The notes under the pieces are model-generated. The model ran no database searches and had not been told where the DNA came from. It saw only the letters and a program-made list of their open reading frames with translations. The position numbers and the translations under genes are program-made. Source: Lysobacter sp. (lineage in GTDB: Bacteria; Pseudomonadota; Gammaproteobacteria; Xanthomonadales; Xanthomonadaceae). From it: a DNA stretch of 64,000 nucleotides. Where the stretch lies: NCBI GenBank assembly GCA_008015835.1, contig SSGH01000037.1:62001-126000 (forward strand). The letters run 5' to 3'. Below are positions 4,484 through 64,000 of this stretch, piece by piece; positions within the stretch are counted from its first letter, which is position 1, and every line of letters starts with the position of its first letter.

Positions 4484-7400
4484 ATGCGTACCTTCTTCTC
4501 TCGCGGGCATCGCGTACTCACGATGCTCGCGGCCGTGTGCCTCACCTTGACCTTGGCCGCATGCGACCCGCCGTGGCGCGCCGAGATCGGAGCCGACGGC
4601 GCGGAGGCCGAATTCGGATCGGCGCAAGTCGCGCTCGACGCGTTCGCGAAGCACCACGGCGACGAAGCCGCGAGCGGCATCTGCGCTGCGACCGATCTCA
4701 GCACCGTGCTCGATCCGGTGCCGCCATCGACAGGGACCGCGCCGGTGAACGTGCGCATCCATTACCGTCGCGACGACGCGCAGTACGGCGATTGGGGCCT
4801 GCATCTGTGGCAGGTGAACGATGCCGGCCAGTACATCGCCGACTATCCGGGCGTGAACTGGAACGCGCCGTTCGCGCGCAGCGGCATCGATAGCTACGGC
4901 GCGTATTTCGATCTGCCCGCGAGCGCATTCGACAACCCCGCGGCCGCCGGCTTCGGTTTCATCGTGCATCCGCCGGGCCAGGGCGGCGATCCGGGCGTCG
5001 ATCGCGTCTGGAAATTCGCCGACGGCGGCGAATTCTGGCTGCGCTCCGGCGACAGCACGGTGTATCGCAGCAATCCGCTGACGACGACGCCGGACGTGCA
5101 CACCTTGCGCGTGCATTACAAACGTTTCGACGGCGCGTTCGACCAGTGGGGCCTGCATCTGTGGCCCACCAGCGGCATCGACCCCGCGCGTTTGCAGGGG
5201 CTGACGCTCGACCAATGGGGTAATCCGGTGCCGTTGAGCGCGATGCCCGGCTACGTCGCGCAAGGCGCGAACGACATCGTGTTCGATCTGCCGGTGCTGA
5301 ACCCGACCGGCGATTCGAATCGACGTGCGGTGGAATTCATCGTCCACGGCATGCCGAGCAACCCGAACGGCGGCGTGAACAATAAAGACGGCTGGAACGA
5401 CAATATCCGCGTCGCGTTCGGCGCGATGACCATCGCCAACGGCGTCGGCCATATCTGGCTGATCGGCGGCGATGCGCGCGTGTTCTACTCCACGCCGGAT
5501 ACGCGCCGCGTGTCCAGCACCGATGCGCGCGCGGTGTGGCTGACGCGCGACCGCATCCGCTGGCCGCAAGTCGATGGCGCGGGTCGGTTCAAGCTGTATC
5601 ACTCCGCCAGCGGCCAGATCCGCGTGCGTCGCGGCGCCGCCGTGGAAGGCGCGGACGGCGCGATCGCGCTCGAGATCGGCGGCGACGTGCCGGCCGACGC
5701 CGCCGAACGTTTCCAATACGTCGGCGCGGGCGTCACGCTCTCGGTACCGGCCGCCGCCGCTGCGCAGTTGGATGAAGCACTGCGCGGGCAACTGGTGTTG
5801 GTGCAGGAAGACGGCGACGGCAACACGCTCGGCGCCACCACCGCGCAAATCGCGGGCTTGCTGGACGACCGCTTCGCCGCGGCGCAGAACGTGGACGATC
5901 TGGGCGTGTCGATTCGGCATGGCCGCACCGCGTTCAAACTGTGGGCGCCCACCGCGCAGAAAGTGACGCTCTGCGTGTACGGCCGCGGCGGTTTCCGCAG
6001 CGCGCAGCGCGACATGCAATTCGATGCGACGACCGGCGTGTGGAGCTTGCGTCAGCACGGGCGCCTCGACGGTCTGTACTACCGTTATGCCGTCGAAACC
6101 TTCGTGCGCGGCGTGGGTCGCGTGCGCAATCTCGTCACCGACCCGTATTCGATCGGCCTCGACGCGAATTCGCAGCGCAGCTACATCGCCGATCTCGATG
6201 CACCGTGGCTGATGCCGCACGGCTGGCGGCACAGCAACCCGCCGCGCAACGTGCGCGCGCAGGAAGACCTGTCGGTGTACGAATTGCATGTGCGCGATTT
6301 CTCGGCGAACGACGCCAGCGTCAGCCCGCGCAATCGCGGTAAATATCTCGCGTTCGGGGAATGGAATTCGAACGGCATGCGCCACCTGCGCGCGCTCGCC
6401 GACGCCGGGGTCACCGACGTGCATCTGCTGCCGGTGTTCGATATCGCCAGCGTGCCGGAAACCGACTGCACGACGCCAGCCGTTCCGAACGCGGGCCCGG
6501 ATTGGGCGGACCAGCAGGCCGCGGTCGCCGCGACCCGCGGCGAAGACTGCTTCAACTGGGGCTACGACCCCTGGCACTACACCGCGCCGGAAGGCAGTTA
6601 CGCCAGCGACGCCAGCGACGGCGCCGCGCGCATTCGCGAATTCCGCGCGATGGTGATGAGCTTGCATCGCGCCGGTCTGCGCGTGGGCATGGATGTGGTC
6701 TACAACCACACCACCGCATCGGGCCAAAACGACCGCTCGGTGCTCGATCGCGTAGTGCCGGGCTATTACCACCGCCTGAACGACGCCGGCGACATCGAGC
6801 GCTCGACCTGCTGCGACAACACCGCCACCGAAAACGCGATGATGGGCAAGCTCATGATCGACTCGGTGAAGACCTGGGCCACGCAGTACAAGATCAGTTC
6901 GTTCCGTTTCGATCTGATGGGTCATCAGCCGCGCGCGACGATGGAGCGTCTGCAGAGCGAAGTGAACGCCGCCGCCGGTCGTCGCGTCGAACTGTTCGGC
7001 GAAGGCTGGAATTTCGGCGAAGTCGCCAACGGCGCGCGCTTCGTGCAGGCCTCGCAACTCTCGCTCAACGGCTCGGGCATCGGCACGTTCAGCGACCGCG
7101 CGCGCGACCACGTGCGCGGCGGCTCCGGGTTCGACAGCGACATCTGGCTGCGCCGCAACCAGGGCTACATCAACGGCATGCACTACGACGACAACGGCAC
7201 CGGCGGCAACAAGAGCCGCAACGACCTGATGTGGTCGGCCGACGTGATCAAAGTCGGTCTCGCCGGTTCGGTGCGCGATTTCACGATGACCACGCATTGG
7301 AACGCGACGCTGCGCCTGGATCAGATCGACTACGGCGGCCAGCCGGCCGGTTACGTCAGCGACCCGCAGGAAGTGGTGAACTACGTCGAGAACCACGACA

Positions 7401-59285: not shown

Positions 59286-59314
59286 TTGCTTTTCGTAAAA
59301 GACGGGTGTAACTT
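59286..59314 (+). promoter_or_regulatory. Sigma-70-type promoter of a short transcription unit
   Basis: TTGCTT (59286-59291), exactly 17 bp, then TAACTT (59309-59314), inside an A/T-rich island (59270-59360) that stands out from its GC-rich surroundings. Transcription would begin near 59321. Confidence 0.6.
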
Positions 59315-59394
59315 GCGCGCCCACAGCAAACCGCTGCCGCTTTTCCCGTTTTTCGAAACTTTCCCCGAACCTCACCGAACCCCTGAATTTCAGC

Positions 59395-59535
59395 ATGTAT
59401 TCGATTCGTCGCTCCGCTAAATCGCTCGACACTTCGCGCCCGCAGCGCGATGCCGACGCGTGCGCGAGCGTCGACGAACGACAGGCATGCTTCGGGCGGA
59501 ATTGCCCCGAACGCCTGCATTCGGGCAACGGCTAA
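59395..59535 (+). CDS. Possible 46-residue cysteine-containing small protein
   Basis: A 46-codon ORF starting MYSIRRSAKSLD and ending LHSGNG, with three cysteines (DACAS, QACFG, RNCPE) and many charged residues. It is the only ORF between a good promoter (59286-59314) and a strong terminator (59588-59624). No Shine-Dalgarno is evident, so the unit might instead be a non-coding RNA of about 305 nt. Between the ORF and the terminator lies a hairpin GGAGATCGG/CCGATCTCC. No homologue recognised. Confidence 0.35.
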   Translation: MYSIRRSAKSLDTSRPQRDADACASVDERQACFGRNCPERLHSGNG

Positions 59536-59587
59536 CCACGACCGATTCCGTTCCGGAGATCGGCCGCCCCGATCTCCGAGGACCGCG

Positions 59588-59624
59588 AACGCCCTCGGAT
59601 ACCCATCCGGGGGCGTTTTTCTTT
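59588..59624 (+). terminator. Intrinsic terminator of the short transcription unit
   Basis: A 12-bp stem with one G-U pair (AACGCCCTCGGA with TCCGGGGGCGTT), six-base loop, then TTTCTTTT. It ends the transcript that starts near 59321. Confidence 0.88.
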
Positions 59625-59645
59625 TCGCGTTCGCAAAGGAATTTC

Positions 59646-59774
59646 ATGCACGCGCGCGGATCACCGCGTCGCGAACGGTTTCGCACACGTGTTTTCCGAT
59701 CCGCAGCATCCAGCGCGAACGTCCGGACATCGAGGTCCGAAGACGGGTCGTCGCTGTCGCGGATGTCCGCCTGA
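59646..59774 (+). CDS. Doubtful 42-residue ORF with a good ribosome binding site
   Basis: AAAGGA lies five bases before an ATG opening a 42-codon, arginine/serine-rich frame (MHARGSPRRERF...). Composition resembles GC-rich shadow sequence, and it directly follows a terminator, so it would need its own promoter, which I do not see. Confidence 0.12.
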   Translation: MHARGSPRRERFRTRVFRSAASSANVRTSRSEDGSSLSRMSA

Positions 59775-59965
59775 GGCGCGAAAGCGCTGCGCCGCGATGC
59801 TCGGTGCGGGTGGCGGGAACTGCGTGCGCACACGAATTGCCGGTTGTTCGCAGCCGGCAATGCGAAGCATCCATCGTACGTTTCCTGCGGTATGGGTTTC
59901 TCGCCCATCCGGTGCGCGCGGCTGTGCCGTGGCGTATGCCCGAGGCGATGCGCGGATGTTTCTCG

Positions 59966-60039
59966 ATGACGGTAGCTCAGTCGGGTAGAGCAGCGAATTC
60001 TTAATTCGTAGGTCGCCGGTTCGATTCCGGCACGTCGTT
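59966..60039 (+). tRNA. tRNA-Lys(CUU)-like RNA, non-canonical
   Basis: A cloverleaf can be drawn: D-arm GCTC/GAGC (59975-59991), anticodon arm GCGAA-TTCTTAA-TTCGT with anticodon CTT at 60000-60002, T-arm GCCGG-TTCGATT-CCGGC. The acceptor stem (ATGACGG/ACGTCGT) has a mismatch at the innermost pair and a T-G wobble. The discriminator base is T, and no CCA is encoded. These oddities and its place ahead of slipin and rtcB suggest a tRNA-like molecule of the RNA-repair locus rather than a decoding tRNA. Confidence 0.65.
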
Positions 60040-60041
60040 CG

Positions 60042-60112
60042 TTTTGGACCGCCTATCGGTTAGGCACTGATTTTAGATATCAGCGTTGCGGGTTCGACTC
60101 CCGCTCCAAAAA
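60042..60112 (+). tRNA. tRNA-like RNA with Leu(UAG) anticodon but class I variable loop
   Basis: A clean cloverleaf: acceptor TTTTGGA/TCCAAAA (7 of 7 pairs), D-arm GCCT/AGGC, anticodon arm CTGAT-TTTAGAT-ATCAG with anticodon TAG (60074-60076), T-arm GCGGG-TTCGACT-CCCGC. TAG would read Leu CUA, but leucine tRNAs have a long variable arm and this has only four bases. Position 8 is C rather than the near-universal U, and CCA is not encoded. It starts two bases after the first tRNA-like RNA, so both must come from one precursor. Confidence 0.75.
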
Positions 60113-60488
60113 CCCATGACCTGAAACGTCATGCCATCCGGGACGCAAGTCCCGCCCACGGAAACGCCTCTTGCGGCGTCTTCGGCACGGCGCGCTTCGG
60201 CGCGTCGCGACGAGAACGGCGCAGCGGCGATACCGCCGGATTCGCGCCCGCGACGCGCGCGGGTCGGCAACGGAACCGATGCACGCGAACATCGCATGCG
60301 GCGGCGAAGCGGTCGATCTCCGCGCCAAGCGCGCACGAGTTCCGCGTTGTCGGCGTCGGAGGCGTTTCCATCTTCTTCTCTCGCATCGGGACTCCGTTGC
60401 GATCGCACGCGCGGCGACCGATTCCCCGCGATGTGTCTTGCTTGAAGCGAATCGGACCACCAGAGCCCAACAGGAAGGAGAACCCCCG
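60113..60488. other. Leader between tRNA-like genes and slipin gene
   Basis: About 375 bp without a convincing ORF. It holds several short hairpins (CATGAC/GTCATG at 60115-60133, GGGAC/GTCCC at 60138-60152, ACGCC/GGCGT near 60165-60182) but no clear terminator, so the tRNA-like RNAs and the slipin gene may share a transcript. No sigma-54 promoter (the type driven by RtcR) was found by eye. Confidence 0.4.
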
Positions 60489-61613
60489 ATGTTCTGGAAA
60501 AAGAGGGTCGTGATCGGCGACGGCGAACGCGGCCTGGTGTATCGCGACCGCAGGTTCGAACGTGCGCTCGAACCCGGCGTTTACAACTTCGTCGACCCGT
60601 TCGGTCGTTTGGAGATCGTCGTGCACAACGTCGCCAAGCCGGAATACGTCGGCGCCGATGTCGACGCGTTGATCGCCGCGCTCGGCGACAAGCTCGACGC
60701 GCACTTCGTGCTCGGCGACGTCGGCACCGACGAAGTCGGCCTGGTGTCGAAGAACGGCAAGCTCGAGGATCTGTTGCTGCCGGGGACGCGCAAGCTGTAT
60801 TGGCGCGCGCCGGTGCGCGTGGAGATCGAGCGCATGACGCTGCCGCAGGATCTCGAAGTGCGCGCGGACGTCGCCAAGCGCTTGCGTCAGCTCGGCGCGC
60901 TGGCGCGCGTCGCCGCGGTCGCGGATGTGCCCACCGAATTCGTCGGCTTGCTGTTCGTCGACGGCCGGTTCGTGCGCACGCTCGACCCGGGCAGCTACGC
61001 GTTCTGGAATTTCCAGAAGAACGCGACGATCGATCTCGTCGACTTGCGCGTGCAGGCGGTCGAAGTGGCCGGTCAAGAGTTGTTGACCCGCGACAAAGTC
61101 TCGCTGCGCGTCAACTTGGCCGCGAGCGTGCGCGTCGTCGACGCGGTCGCGTCGCGCACCAAGGTGGCGAAGTCCGGCGAACAGGTCTATCGTGAATTGC
61201 AGTACGGCTTGCGCAAGGCGGTTTCCGCCAAGACGCTCGACGAATTGCTCGGCGACAAGGCCTCGCTCGACGGCGACATTTTCGGCTACGTGCGCGGCAA
61301 GGCGGAGGCCTTCGGCGTCGAAGTCTTGGGCGTCGGCGTGAAGGACGTGATCCTGCCGGGCGAGATGCGCGAGATCCTCAACGGCGTGGTGCAGGCGGAA
61401 AAGTCGGCGCAGGCCAACGTGATCCGCCGTCGCGAGGAAGCGAACGCCGCGCGTTCCCTGCTCAACACCGCGAAATTGATCGACGAGAGCCCGGTGCTGA
61501 TGCGTTTGAAGGAACTCGAAGCGCTGGAGAAGATCGTCGAGAAGATCGACAAGCTCACCGTGTTCGGCGGCCTGGACGGCGTGCTGAAGCAGTTGGTGAA
61601 CATCAAACCGTAA
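60489..61613 (+). CDS. Slipin-type SPFH/Band-7 protein lacking an N-terminal membrane segment
   Basis: A 374-residue SPFH-domain protein. It begins MFWKKRVVIGDGERGLVYRD and goes directly into the family's GLVYRDRRFERALEPGVY-type start, so the usual hydrophobic hairpin is missing. The SPFH core (about 195-290: DLRVQAVEVAGQELLT, KVSLRVNLAASVRV) is followed by VKDVILPGEM and a coiled coil (EKSAQANVIRRREEANAARS). A very strong GGAAGGAGA precedes the ATG. Slipins of this type travel with RtcB in many bacteria. The protein probably forms a cytoplasmic scaffold. A terminator lies right after it. Confidence 0.88.
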   Translation: MFWKKRVVIGDGERGLVYRDRRFERALEPGVYNFVDPFGRLEIVVHNVAKPEYVGADVDALIAALGDKLDAHFVLGDVGTDEVGLVSKNGKLEDLLLPGTRKLYWRAPVRVEIERMTLPQDLEVRADVAKRLRQLGALARVAAVADVPTEFVGLLFVDGRFVRTLDPGSYAFWNFQKNATIDLVDLRVQAVEVAGQELLTRDKVSLRVNLAASVRVVDAVASRTKVAKSGEQVYRELQYGLRKAVSAKTLDELLGDKASLDGDIFGYVRGKAEAFGVEVLGVGVKDVILPGEMREILNGVVQAEKSAQANVIRRREEANAARSLLNTAKLIDESPVLMRLKELEALEKIVEKIDKLTVFGGLDGVLKQLVNIKP

Positions 61614-61615
61614 CC

Positions 61616-61648
61616 CGCGCGGCCGGAAGGACCCGGCCGCGCGTTTTT
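61616..61648 (+). terminator. Intrinsic terminator or attenuator after the slipin gene
   Basis: A perfect 11-bp stem CGCGCGGCCGG/CCGGCCGCGCG with a seven-base loop, then TTTTT. It lies inside the locus, so part of the transcripts probably stop before the next two genes. Confidence 0.8.
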
Positions 61649-61706
61649 CGAACCGATCGCTCGAACGAACGACTCGAGCGGATTTCCAGAAACGGAGCGT
61701 CGTGCC

Positions 61707-62480
61707 ATGCGCGCGGATATGTACAAAGTGATCGTCGAGCGGCCGCGCCGCGGCGGCGGTATGCGCGGAGAAGACTCCGCACCGATCGATCTGGACGATT
61801 CGCCGCGGCAGGAAGGCCTGCGACGGCGACATCGGCGCCATAAATGGCTGAACGAAAATCTGGCCCCGTTGCGGCGCTATTTGGCGTCGCAGGTCGGTCG
61901 GCCGTGGGATAAGGTGTTTTCGGACATCTGCGCGGGCATCGATCGTCGCAACACCGTGCAGCGGCATATCCACCAGCATCTGGAGGATTTCGTCGCGATT
62001 CGCGTTTACGATGTCGACGGCGTTTTCCAGATCGACGGCCGTTGGCGGGGGCGCGTTCCGCTCGCGGACCATTGGGCACCCAAGTTCTACGTCCATCCTC
62101 GTCACGGATTGCTCTGCGTTAACGAAGATCGTATTCAGACGCGACGCGATTACGCACGGAAGCGGAAAGCGAGTTTGCGCGCGGCCCGTGAGGATCGATG
62201 CGTAAATCGAAGAATTCTTGATGCGAGCACGCAACTGCATCGCATCGACGGCGTCTGGTATCGGGTCGAGTTGTCCGCCATCACCAACGAAGCCATGCTC
62301 GACCGGAAAACCGACGCGCTACGAAAACTGCCGCTGGATCGATGCCCGCGAAATATCGCGATGAAAGGCGTCGCCAGCAGCTTGGACCTGTTCGGAAGCC
62401 CGGATGTCTACGCCAGCCGCAAGCGCCAACTCAAAGCGCGCGAACTGCGGCAGTACGGTCTGGTCAACGGCGAGGCTTAA
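61707..62480 (+). CDS. Uncharacterised RtcB-locus protein
   Basis: A 257-residue basic protein of no named family. The core pattern is MYKVIVERPRRG, a basic segment, WLNENLAPLRRYLASQVGRPWDKVFSDIC, NTVQRHIHQHLEDFV and FYVHPRHGLL, followed by a second basic helical half (RRDYARKRKASLR) and an RVELSAITNE strand. To my recollection such proteins recur beside slipin and RtcB genes; I cannot verify that here. Basic charge and context suggest RNA or ribosome binding. GGAG nine bases before supports the ATG at 61707; an in-frame ATG four codons later would also do. Confidence 0.8.
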   Translation: MRADMYKVIVERPRRGGGMRGEDSAPIDLDDSPRQEGLRRRHRRHKWLNENLAPLRRYLASQVGRPWDKVFSDICAGIDRRNTVQRHIHQHLEDFVAIRVYDVDGVFQIDGRWRGRVPLADHWAPKFYVHPRHGLLCVNEDRIQTRRDYARKRKASLRAAREDRCVNRRILDASTQLHRIDGVWYRVELSAITNEAMLDRKTDALRKLPLDRCPRNIAMKGVASSLDLFGSPDVYASRKRQLKARELRQYGLVNGEA

Positions 62481-62578
62481 AGCTCTAGGGCGTTTTCAGA
62501 CGCTATCGTTATTCGTTACCCTTTTCACCTCAAATATCGCGTGCGCCTCGTTCCGGGTCGCACGCACTGGATCGATCA

Positions 62579-63796
62579 ATGAGTCCCTCTTTCCAACTTC
62601 TCCACGCCGAAGACAGCCTCGTCCCGATCAAGGGCTGGGTGGACGGCGTGCCGGTCGAGCCAGAAGCGCGCCGGCAATTGCAGAACATCGCGGCCATCCC
62701 GTTCGTCGGGCCTTGGGTCGCGGTGATGCCCGACGTGCATCTGGGCAAGGGCGCGACCGTCGGCTCGGTGATTCCGACCCGCGGCGCGATCATTCCGGCC
62801 GCGGTGGGCGTGGACATCGGCTGCGGCATGGCCGCGGTGCGCACCACGCTGCGCGCGAGCGACCTGCCCGACAGCCTGGCGCTGCTGCGCAATTCGATCG
62901 AACGCAGCGTGCCGGTCGGCAACGGCGGCGGCGGCGATCACCGCAAACTGCCCGACAGCATCGAAACCCGTTTGGCGCAATCGGGCCTCGTCGCGCGGCT
63001 GGACGCGATCAAGACGAAGCATCGCAAGATCCGCACCGACAAGATCGACAAGCAGATCGGCACGCTCGGCGGCGGCAATCACTTCATCGAAATCTGTCTC
63101 GACGAAAGCGATGCGGTGTGGGTCATGCTGCACTCGGGTTCGCGCGGCACCGGCAATTTGATCGGCGGCTATTTCATCGAACGAGCGCGCGAGGAACTCG
63201 GGCGTCGCACGCTGGGCTTTCACGTACCCGACCGCGACTTGGCGTTCTTCATGGAGGGCGAGGCCTTGTTCGACGACTACGTGGAGGCGGTGTCGTGGGC
63301 GCAGGACTACGCGCGCGCGAACCGCGAGGCGATGATGGCGCGCGTGCTGCACGAGATGCGTCAGCGACTGCCGAAGTTCCAGTTGGACAAGACCGCGGTG
63401 AACTGTCACCACAACTATGTGCAGCGCGAGGAGCACTACGGACAATCGCTGCTCGTGACCCGCAAGGGCGCGGTCAGCGCGCGCGAGGGCGAACTCGGGA
63501 TCATCCCGGGCAGCATGGGCGCGAAGAGTTACATCGTGCGCGGCAAGGGCAACCCCGAGAGCTTCTGCAGTTGCAGCCACGGCGCCGGCCGCAAGATGAG
63601 CCGCACCGCGGCGAAGCAGCAGATCACGCTGAAGCAACACCGCGAAGCCACCGCGCACGTCGAATGCCGCAAGGATCAGGGCGTGATCGACGAATCGCCG
63701 GCCGCGTACAAGGACATCGATGCGGTGATGGCGGCGCAGCGGGACCTCGTCGAGGTCGTTCACACCCTGCGACAGGTCGTGTGCATCAAGGGGTGA
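62579..63796 (+). CDS. rtcB: RNA-splicing/repair ligase RtcB
   Basis: A 405-residue RtcB of standard length. It joins RNA 2',3'-cyclic-phosphate (or 3'-phosphate) ends to 5'-OH ends using GTP and manganese, for example to heal tRNAs cut by anticodon nucleases. Motifs: MPDVHLGKGATVG, VDIGCGMAA with the metal-binding Cys, LGGGNHFIEI, HSGSRGTGN, NCHHNYVQRE and the guanylated His in SHGAGRKMSR. The Shine-Dalgarno is weak and about 100 bp of spacer precede it, so it may have its own promoter (A/T-rich stretch 62495-62535). Confidence 0.96.
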   Translation: MSPSFQLLHAEDSLVPIKGWVDGVPVEPEARRQLQNIAAIPFVGPWVAVMPDVHLGKGATVGSVIPTRGAIIPAAVGVDIGCGMAAVRTTLRASDLPDSLALLRNSIERSVPVGNGGGGDHRKLPDSIETRLAQSGLVARLDAIKTKHRKIRTDKIDKQIGTLGGGNHFIEICLDESDAVWVMLHSGSRGTGNLIGGYFIERAREELGRRTLGFHVPDRDLAFFMEGEALFDDYVEAVSWAQDYARANREAMMARVLHEMRQRLPKFQLDKTAVNCHHNYVQREEHYGQSLLVTRKGAVSAREGELGIIPGSMGAKSYIVRGKGNPESFCSCSHGAGRKMSRTAAKQQITLKQHREATAHVECRKDQGVIDESPAAYKDIDAVMAAQRDLVEVVHTLRQVVCIKG

Positions 63797-63810
63797 GGGA
63801 TCGCGCGCTT

Positions 63811-63984
63811 GCTCGGGATCGCCGCGCAGCGATCCCGAGCACCCGCACATGGACGTGCGGGTGGGGCGATCAGAGGCTGTGGTACGTCACCATGGATGGC
63901 GTCCATATTGTCATTGCCTCGATCACTCGCGGGCACCACCCCGCACTTTCACTGACGCCGCGCTTTCGCGCGGCGTCTTCTTGT
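63811..63984 (+). ncRNA. Structured non-coding region after rtcB, ending in a terminator
   Basis: Four strong foldings in 174 nt. (1) GCTCGGGATCGC/GCGATCCCGAGC, a perfect 12-bp stem at 63811-63840. (2) CACCCGCAC/GTGCGGGTG at 63840-63863. (3) A long-range stem GATCAGAGGC/GCCTCGATC enclosing small hairpins (63868-63924), which can be extended by GTGCGGGTGG (63855-63864) with CCACCCCGCAC (63936-63946); this excludes stem 2. (4) The terminator GACGCCGCGC/GCGCGGCGTC at 63954-63977 followed by TTCTTGT. Competing pairings and the terminator suggest a regulatory leader or a stable RNA. No family identified. Confidence 0.5.
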
Positions 63985-64000
63985 CCAAATGATCGCAGCG

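Follow-up and report, generated by a model that had tools for sequence, protein, structure and literature searches.

Tandem tRNA-like modules with a fast-changing anticodon upstream of slipin and rtcB in Lysobacter and its relatives

The window studied here is a stretch of 64,000 nucleotides from the 4.39 Mb genome of a Lysobacter sp. (contig C53, positions 62001-126000). Its + strand carries, in this order, two tRNA-like modules (A and B, with one base between them), a slipin gene, a gene for an uncharacterised protein (X) and rtcB (Table 1). This anatomy recurs in relatives, where the modules co-occur with slipin and rtcB, helices of the surrounding RNA covary, features of a decoding tRNA have been lost, and the anticodon of B turns over fast. 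The locus is significant because an RNA linked to rtcB imitates tRNA, its fold is kept by covariation, and its anticodon changes faster than synonymous sites.

Our favoured explanation, held tentatively, is that B may serve as a bait or alarm for nucleases of the anticodon loop, with the product re-joined by RtcB and slipin as scaffold. The main rival sees a scaffold RNA in which the anticodon has no use. Two questions stand behind this, namely which RNAs RtcB mends in bacteria and by what means cells that lack RtcR notice broken tRNAs.

Co-conservation of the modules with slipin and rtcB

The two tRNA-like RNAs reported in the first-pass annotation are called by both ARAGORN and Rfam model RF00005, and slipin and RtcB, placed there on one strand, are confirmed by their Pfam domains. 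The RtcB domain is full length, with PF01139 on residues 33-405 covering profile positions 1-426 of 426.

Slipin was sought in 395 genomes of the family (E<=1e-50) and 369 of the class (E<=1e-30). It is present in 139 of the family genomes, and 130 of these loci were read. Downstream of slipin, 126 loci have rtcB in the same orientation, and upstream the A-B pair, recognised as two T-loops at tRNA spacing, is found in 124. The co-conservation check suggested in the first-pass annotation is thus answered very strongly for the tRNA-like pair, slipin and rtcB, while the 257-residue protein X, found in 32 of the 130 loci, is optional. Among the six loci without the pair, the upstream stretches of L131, L178 and L200 are truncated at 121-360 bases, L159 has one T-loop in 783 upstream bases, and L190 and L198 have one T-loop only.

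A model of two hairpins that precede A (R1, comprising H2 and H3) matched 137 of the 395 family genomes, and 135 of these carry slipin (on another contig in G023 and G630); the other two matches, in genomes that lack slipin, reach a weak 34 bits. Four slipin genomes have no R1 match, two with distant slipins (G507, G011) and two with short upstream contigs (G487, G513). Weaker R1 matches lie 5' of slipin in L077, L072, L068, L071 and the Burkholderia locus L089, and the others of 30 sources gave none. Two close relatives of rtcB stand without slipin (L220, 90% identical, and L221, 80%); there, ARAGORN found no tRNA-like and the H2-H3 matches are weak (16.8 and 20.7 bits) and on the strand opposite rtcB. 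A third such relative, L222, ends at the contig start. The distant slipins L224 and L225 have neither a tRNA-like nor H2-H3. Since slipin-less rtcB relatives lack the tRNA-like and nearly all R1 genomes have slipin, the RNA goes with this type of slipin rather than with rtcB, which favours the idea of a companion RNA considered below.

In the class, slipin was found in 22 of the 369 genomes. Leaving out the window and L066, 12 of 20 class loci have a sense ARAGORN tRNA-like 150-700 bases upstream. Among plasmid records and loci outside the class, two Burkholderia loci have one tRNA-like apiece and a Photobacterium locus has two; a Subdoligranulum locus has none near slipin. No slipin relative was found in the phage collection at E 1e-10. 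As a separate observation, the more distant slipin loci L075 and L077 hold extra CCA-ended tRNAs near slipin, recalling the trn array of Anabaena; L075 has 13 ARAGORN tRNA genes, some with unusual D arms.

A different layout occurs in Enterobacteriaceae, where a nucleotidyltransferase gene comes after slipin and, in Citrobacter, rtcR is divergent. In L087 (E. coli, 5500-5811) and L088 (Citrobacter, 5690-5990) a T-arm-like stretch is followed by slipin and the nucleotidyltransferase gene. The E. coli upstream stretch was matched in 1624 of 5426 complete genomes.

Modules A and B are unlike decoding tRNAs

Statistics of the modules were taken from the 124 loci with the pair, choosing the anticodon arm for best pairing. 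The anticodon stem of B has 5 of 5 pairs in 123 loci, with 28 different stems, and its loop has 7 nt in 103 (94 when the scoring does not favour 7). These 103 loops comprise 68 sequences and 35 anticodon triplets; A37 is kept in 90, and T33 (U33) in 57, the window's own B having T33. Acceptor pairs of B number 4 in 67 loci, 5 in 35, 6 in 12 and 7 in 10, and those of A number 5 in 27, 6 in 71 and 7 in 26. Scored without favouring 7, the loop of A has 3-6 bases in 97 loci and 7 in 9, with 17 unassignable; the commonest size is four bases (56 loci), often GNRA-like. It is thus mainly B that retains a loop of tRNA size. The window pair is atypical, with a 7-base loop in A and a 7-bp acceptor in B.

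The window's B carries a Leu anticodon and no long variable arm, while ordinary tRNA-Lys(CTT), tRNA-Lys(TTT) and long-arm tRNA-Leu(TAG) genes occur elsewhere in the genome. A CCA 3' end is present in 39 of the 42 other ARAGORN tRNAs; the ordinary tRNA-Leu(TAG) is among the three without it, so absence of CCA alone proves nothing. In the closest relatives (L090 and L091, slipin 96% identical to that of the window), B is letter-identical save that in one the anticodon TAG has become TGG, and A differs in the anticodon arm.

These comparisons address whether the pair could be ordinary or spare decoding tRNAs, or decaying copies of tRNAs. Both modules do score above the RF00005 cut-off. Anticodons change between sister species, however, U33 is often lost, the acceptors of B are mostly short, and the genome has its separate tRNA-Lys(CUU) and tRNA-Leu(UAG); on sequence grounds, A and B are hence judged not to be decoding tRNAs, so that the refuting condition named in the first-pass annotation does not apply. 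Decay is contradicted by the conserved position and the kept stems. Together with the anticodon turnover, these features rule out both forms of the explanation for practical purposes.

Since tRNA folds commonly direct cuts by RNase P or RNase Z, A and B might instead be processing signals, recognised by one of these enzymes to free the leader RNA from the mRNA. By eye, A seems to end in ACCA right before B in many relatives. We consider this very improbable, however, as B has just 4 or 5 of the 7 acceptor pairs in 102 of 124 loci and the kept 7-nt loop with its fast anticodon would be left unexplained. A kissing interaction between the loops of A and B was also considered and found no support (complementarity 2.50 against 2.42 when permuted, with 15 of 200 permutations as high).

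Turnover of the B anticodon

Sister pairs were taken from the slipin gene tree. From 38 in all, 25 were kept (slipin divergence <15%, and a loop of 7 bases in both members), 11 being dropped for loop length (10 of these with different loops) and 2 for divergence. Loops were extracted directly and are unaffected by a one-base shift of window-type B in the per-column tree alignment.

The B anticodon differs at 28 of 75 positions (37%), in 16 of the 25 pairs. In the same pairs, differences amount to 471/5391 (8.7%) at four-fold sites of slipin, 376/5575 (6.7%) at sites further upstream, 51/728 (7.0%) just before A, 21/1076 (2.0%) in the B core, and 692/8349 (8.3%) in the B-to-slipin spacer, a comparison to be read with caution, as this spacer is itself structured RNA. 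Where pairs could be aligned, the values are 549/4190 (13.1%) at four-fold sites of rtcB and 212/1930 (11.0%) between slipin and the next gene. The anticodon thus changes about 3-5 times as fast as synonymous and flanking sites (pooled Fisher tests against spacer, upstream, pre-A, slipin-to-next-gene and rtcB four-fold sites, each p <2e-7).

Two further patterns set the loop apart from the other free sites of B. When loci are grouped by B bodies that agree in every letter, the loops differ within 8 of the 13 sets. In genus g45, the alternative loops TCCGTAA and TCCTGAT are both present in each of three sister pairs, as if alleles had been exchanged.

A large structured RNA around the modules

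Upstream of A, hairpins H1, H2 and H3 show many compensatory changes across the 124 loci. For H2-H3, 98.5% of cells pair in 54 sequences chosen for diversity, and in these all five measures lie above all 500 shuffles and slid controls. Directly after B, a hairpin of at least 5 pairs within 42 bases (H4) recurs in 122 of the 124 loci, whereas about 39% of shuffles have one; its stem sequences differ among loci. In 116 loci, covariation was counted for H4, for H5 with its GNRA loop, for a long-range stem and for a hairpin near the slipin start; these counts carry no shuffle control.

A script found no terminator-like site between B and slipin in the 124 loci, and a search of 59600-60490 against Rfam 15 (E up to 5) returned only the two tRNAs and five matches below their gathering scores. 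Given the covarying helices up to the slipin start, the lack of such a site and the lack of any Rfam family beyond tRNA, we read 59833-60488 (about 650 nt, reaching the slipin start) as one leader-like RNA with putative ends. It is most likely the 5' part of a slipin(-X)-rtcB transcript. A link to phages was considered and dropped, since viral contigs did not contain the exact H3 motif and the phage collection had no slipin relative.

The first-pass annotation had placed a structured RNA 3' of rtcB. The non-coding stretch there (63797-63990) does fold far better than shuffles (z -6.15). It ends, however, in an ordinary terminator-like hairpin, and matches to its strong hairpins (63797-63953) in close relatives are patchy, so it is not counted in the system. 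By covariation, the stronger structured RNA lies upstream of rtcB, around and beyond the tRNA-likes.

Regulation

RtcR, RtcA and Ro60/TROVE were not found within the slipin-rtcB locus. Their absence, noted in the first-pass annotation, is true of the locus and not of the genome, as a separate operon on contig C62 encodes RtcR, RtcA and a further RtcB, along with the one TROVE match of the genome. Archease, also listed there as missing, had no match in any of the 12 genomes checked. In five genomes, each at least 99% complete (G015, G018, G022, G025 and G028), the slipin system holds the only RtcB match, and RtcR, RtcA, TROVE and archease gave no match. The slipin system therefore stands alone there and its control cannot be RtcR, which supports a regulation independent of RtcR and agrees with the earlier suggestion that it may differ from the known rtc operons. 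A sigma-70 scan of 59300-64000 found no promoter, and sigma-54 matches 5' of A were scattered in 7 of the 124 loci, with no conserved site.

In such genomes another way of sensing damage would be needed, and the leader itself might supply it. A cut in B (or A) would refold the nascent leader and switch slipin and rtcB on, and RtcB would then re-join the leader and switch expression off. The conserved structure up to the ribosome-binding region and the uninterrupted stretch between B and slipin would suit a cis sensor; the leader might, however, equally be a separate RNA, and we regard this account as improbable. In its most general form, hardly less doubtful to us, any anticodon nuclease would cut the mimic, rtcB would be turned on, and RtcB would seal both the tRNAs and the sensor and so reset it, with the exchangeable, fast-evolving loop in an arms race with nucleases and RtcR and RtcA not required.

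Possible role of B and the main rival

Cutting of an anticodon loop commonly yields a 2',3'-cyclic phosphate and a 5'-OH, the ends that RtcB joins. If B is a bait or alarm, the slipin(-X)-rtcB leader, transcribed with its genes as a single unit, would fold as a large RNA with two tRNA-like modules. In most relatives A would offer a tRNA body with its anticodon arm capped by a short loop, and B would present a tRNA-sized anticodon loop with an anticodon free to change. Toxin nucleases, or those activated by phage or stress, would be captured by cutting B in this loop instead of, or together with, real tRNAs. RtcB would re-ligate the cut B, slipin would be a membrane-bound scaffold, and expression of the genes might be affected. 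Such a role is suggested by the linkage of the A-B tandem to slipin-rtcB, by the stem and loop of B being kept while its anticodon varies, and by the genomes in which this is the only rtcB and RtcR and RtcA gave no match. The sensor, decoy or substrate role for anticodon nucleases proposed in the first-pass annotation fits the evolution of B as compared here. If B is bait or sensor, its loop sequences would be a natural record of the anticodons under attack.

Several observations weigh against this role. No ARAGORN tRNA-like precedes slipin in 8 of the 20 distant class loci, and the Enterobacteriaceae relatives examined have slipin with an upstream T-arm-like motif, seen by eye, and no ARAGORN tRNA. 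In 21 of the 124 loci the loop of B is not 7 nt long. Folded alone, 59950-60135 is little more stable than its shuffles (z -1.59, matched by 13 of 200), and at minimum energy B takes its cloverleaf and A does not, so the case for A is made by the covariance model and conservation. None of the anticodons has been assigned a nuclease, nuclease genes not having been searched for. Finally, other free sites of B (D loop, variable loop and T-loop 59), in columns picked among the high-entropy columns of the alignment, differ at 48 of 170 positions (28%) and are statistically inseparable from the anticodon (p 0.18). Selection specific to the anticodon is therefore not proven, and the speed of B may reflect lack of constraint together with recombination or local mutation.

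The last point is shared by the main rival, in which the leader is a structural companion, serving slipin and RtcB as scaffold or cofactor much as Y RNA serves Ro60, and the unused loop of B drifts. That other free positions of B are about as fast as the anticodon is expected on this account, as is the lack of an anticodon-sized loop in A in most relatives. Drift alone, however, would not keep a 5-bp stem, the usual 7-nt loop and A37 in 90 of 103 loops, nor would it readily explain an anticodon whose rate is some 3-5 times that of synonymous and flanking sites, or different loops on letter-identical bodies. We consider a purely structural companion somewhat unlikely, and continue with bait or alarm as the working explanation.

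Relation to known systems

In 2016, Burroughs and Aravind reportedly described modules in which a Band-7 protein is combined with RtcB and a tRNA-like RNA. The window locus has this layout, its elements being adjacent and on one strand.

A single tRNA-like beside stomatin-rtcAB has been in print since 2012 for Pelobacter carbinolicus. According to the accessible text of that report, the mutant tRNA Pcar_R0061 lies beside stomatin-rtcA-rtcB and rtcR, with a changed anticodon, U33 lost, a shortened acceptor and stem pairs kept, and a substrate or guide was proposed by its authors (PMC3543383). As in the window, the tRNA-like precedes a stomatin-like gene and rtcB, all in the same orientation; the Pelobacter case, as described there, is a single tRNA-like in one genome, with divergent rtcR and with rtcA (PMC3543383). 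In contrast, the tRNA-likes of the present system come as a tandem pair with neither rtcR nor rtcA in the locus, the anticodon varies over 124 loci, and a large RNA surrounds the pair.

In Salmonella, the rsr-yrlBA-rtcBA operon is regulated by RtcR and induced by broken tRNAs with cyclic-phosphate ends, and its authors raise the possibility that a Y RNA, through its tRNA-like domain, competitively inhibits an anticodon nuclease (PMC7790460). The bait or alarm explanation draws on both points. The two systems have in common RtcB, a non-coding RNA with a tRNA-like domain and the theme of damaged tRNA; the Salmonella operon has Ro60 in place of slipin, with RtcR and RtcA present (PMC7790460). Unlike in Salmonella, RtcR-RtcB-RtcA are here apart on C62, and the Rfam YrlA model scored the leader at 22 bits, below its gathering score of 69 (E 0.053).

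The TrcR regulon of Anabaena combines, under a single repressor, rtcB, a slipin gene and a trn array of 26 tRNA genes (PMC10272220). The likeness to the present locus is a stress-linked control common to slipin, rtcB and spare tRNAs; in Anabaena, however, they occupy separate loci (all3526, alr0740 and a megaplasmid array), and the accessible text mentions no tRNA-like by rtcB (PMC10272220). An SPFH gene also lies inside the rtc locus of P. aeruginosa PA14, as stated in the accessible part of its report (PMC13086221).

In the literature searched (titles and abstract openings among the matches listed, with few subscription papers), the tandem pair, the anticodon turnover and H1-H5 are not described. 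As far as this literature shows, the tandem form, the anticodon turnover and the large leader RNA are new.

Protein X and other features of the locus

Pfam and NCBIfam searches with the window's protein X gave nothing up to E 1, in keeping with the first-pass description of it as uncharacterised. Eight aligned members gave two weak Pfam matches, in one member each (best E 0.029). Among PDB sequences only two weak globin matches appeared (E 0.007 and 0.028); these were taken as chance. A fold search against PDB gave no match at E up to 0.001, the AlphaFold model has a mean pLDDT of 68, and the closest named match is in a Lysobacteraceae metagenome-assembled genome (MAG). From its neighbourhoods, protein X looks like a partner of RtcB in its own right. 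Relatives of X adjoin rtcB in L060, L061, L062, L063 and L018, where tblastn found no slipin.

Table 1. Features of the slipin-rtcB locus in window coordinates
Feature	Position	Strand	Basis
Hairpin H1 of leader RNA (CGAATTGCCG..CGGCAATGC)	59833..59863	+	covarying hairpin, alignment of 124 loci
Hairpins H2 and H3 of leader RNA (model R1)	59883..59941	+	covariation against shuffles; R1 search of family genomes
tRNA-like module A, anticodon CTT, 7-base loop in window	59966..60040	+	ARAGORN; Rfam RF00005, 57.5 bits
tRNA-like module B, anticodon TAG in window	60042..60114	+	ARAGORN; Rfam RF00005, 50.2 bits
Hairpin H4 (CATGAC..GTCATG), directly 3' of B	60115..60133	+	hairpin recurrence against shuffles; covariation
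Hairpin H5, GCAA tetraloop	60140..60153	+	covariation, 116 loci
Multi-helix domain	60160..60369	+	long-range closing stem; covariation, 116 loci
Closing stem of multi-helix domain (GGAAACGCC with GGCGTTTCC)	60160-60168 with 60361-60369	+	
Hairpin CCGATTC..GAATCGG	60418..60455	+	covariation, 116 loci; 5' of conserved ACCACCAGAGCC and ribosome-binding region
Slipin (SPFH/Band-7), 374 aa	60489..61613	+	Pfam Band_7, 5.8e-28; Band-7 domain at residues 147-318
Protein X, 257 aa, putative optional rtcB partner	61707..62480	+	open reading frame (ORF)
RtcB RNA ligase (predicted), 405 aa	62579..63796	+	PF01139, 2.9e-126
Terminator-like hairpin after rtcB	63954..63977	+	

A strong terminator-like hairpin lies between slipin and protein X (61616-61643), and slipin and X-rtcB may be partly uncoupled by it in the window genome. 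As a shared attenuator after slipin it was discarded, a script having found counterparts in just 3 of the 124 loci, including the window. On the other side of the locus, 5' of the leader RNA, there is a small ORF at 59396-59536 of about 46 codons, Cys-containing by eye, followed just before the leader by a strong terminator-like hairpin at 59587-59618.

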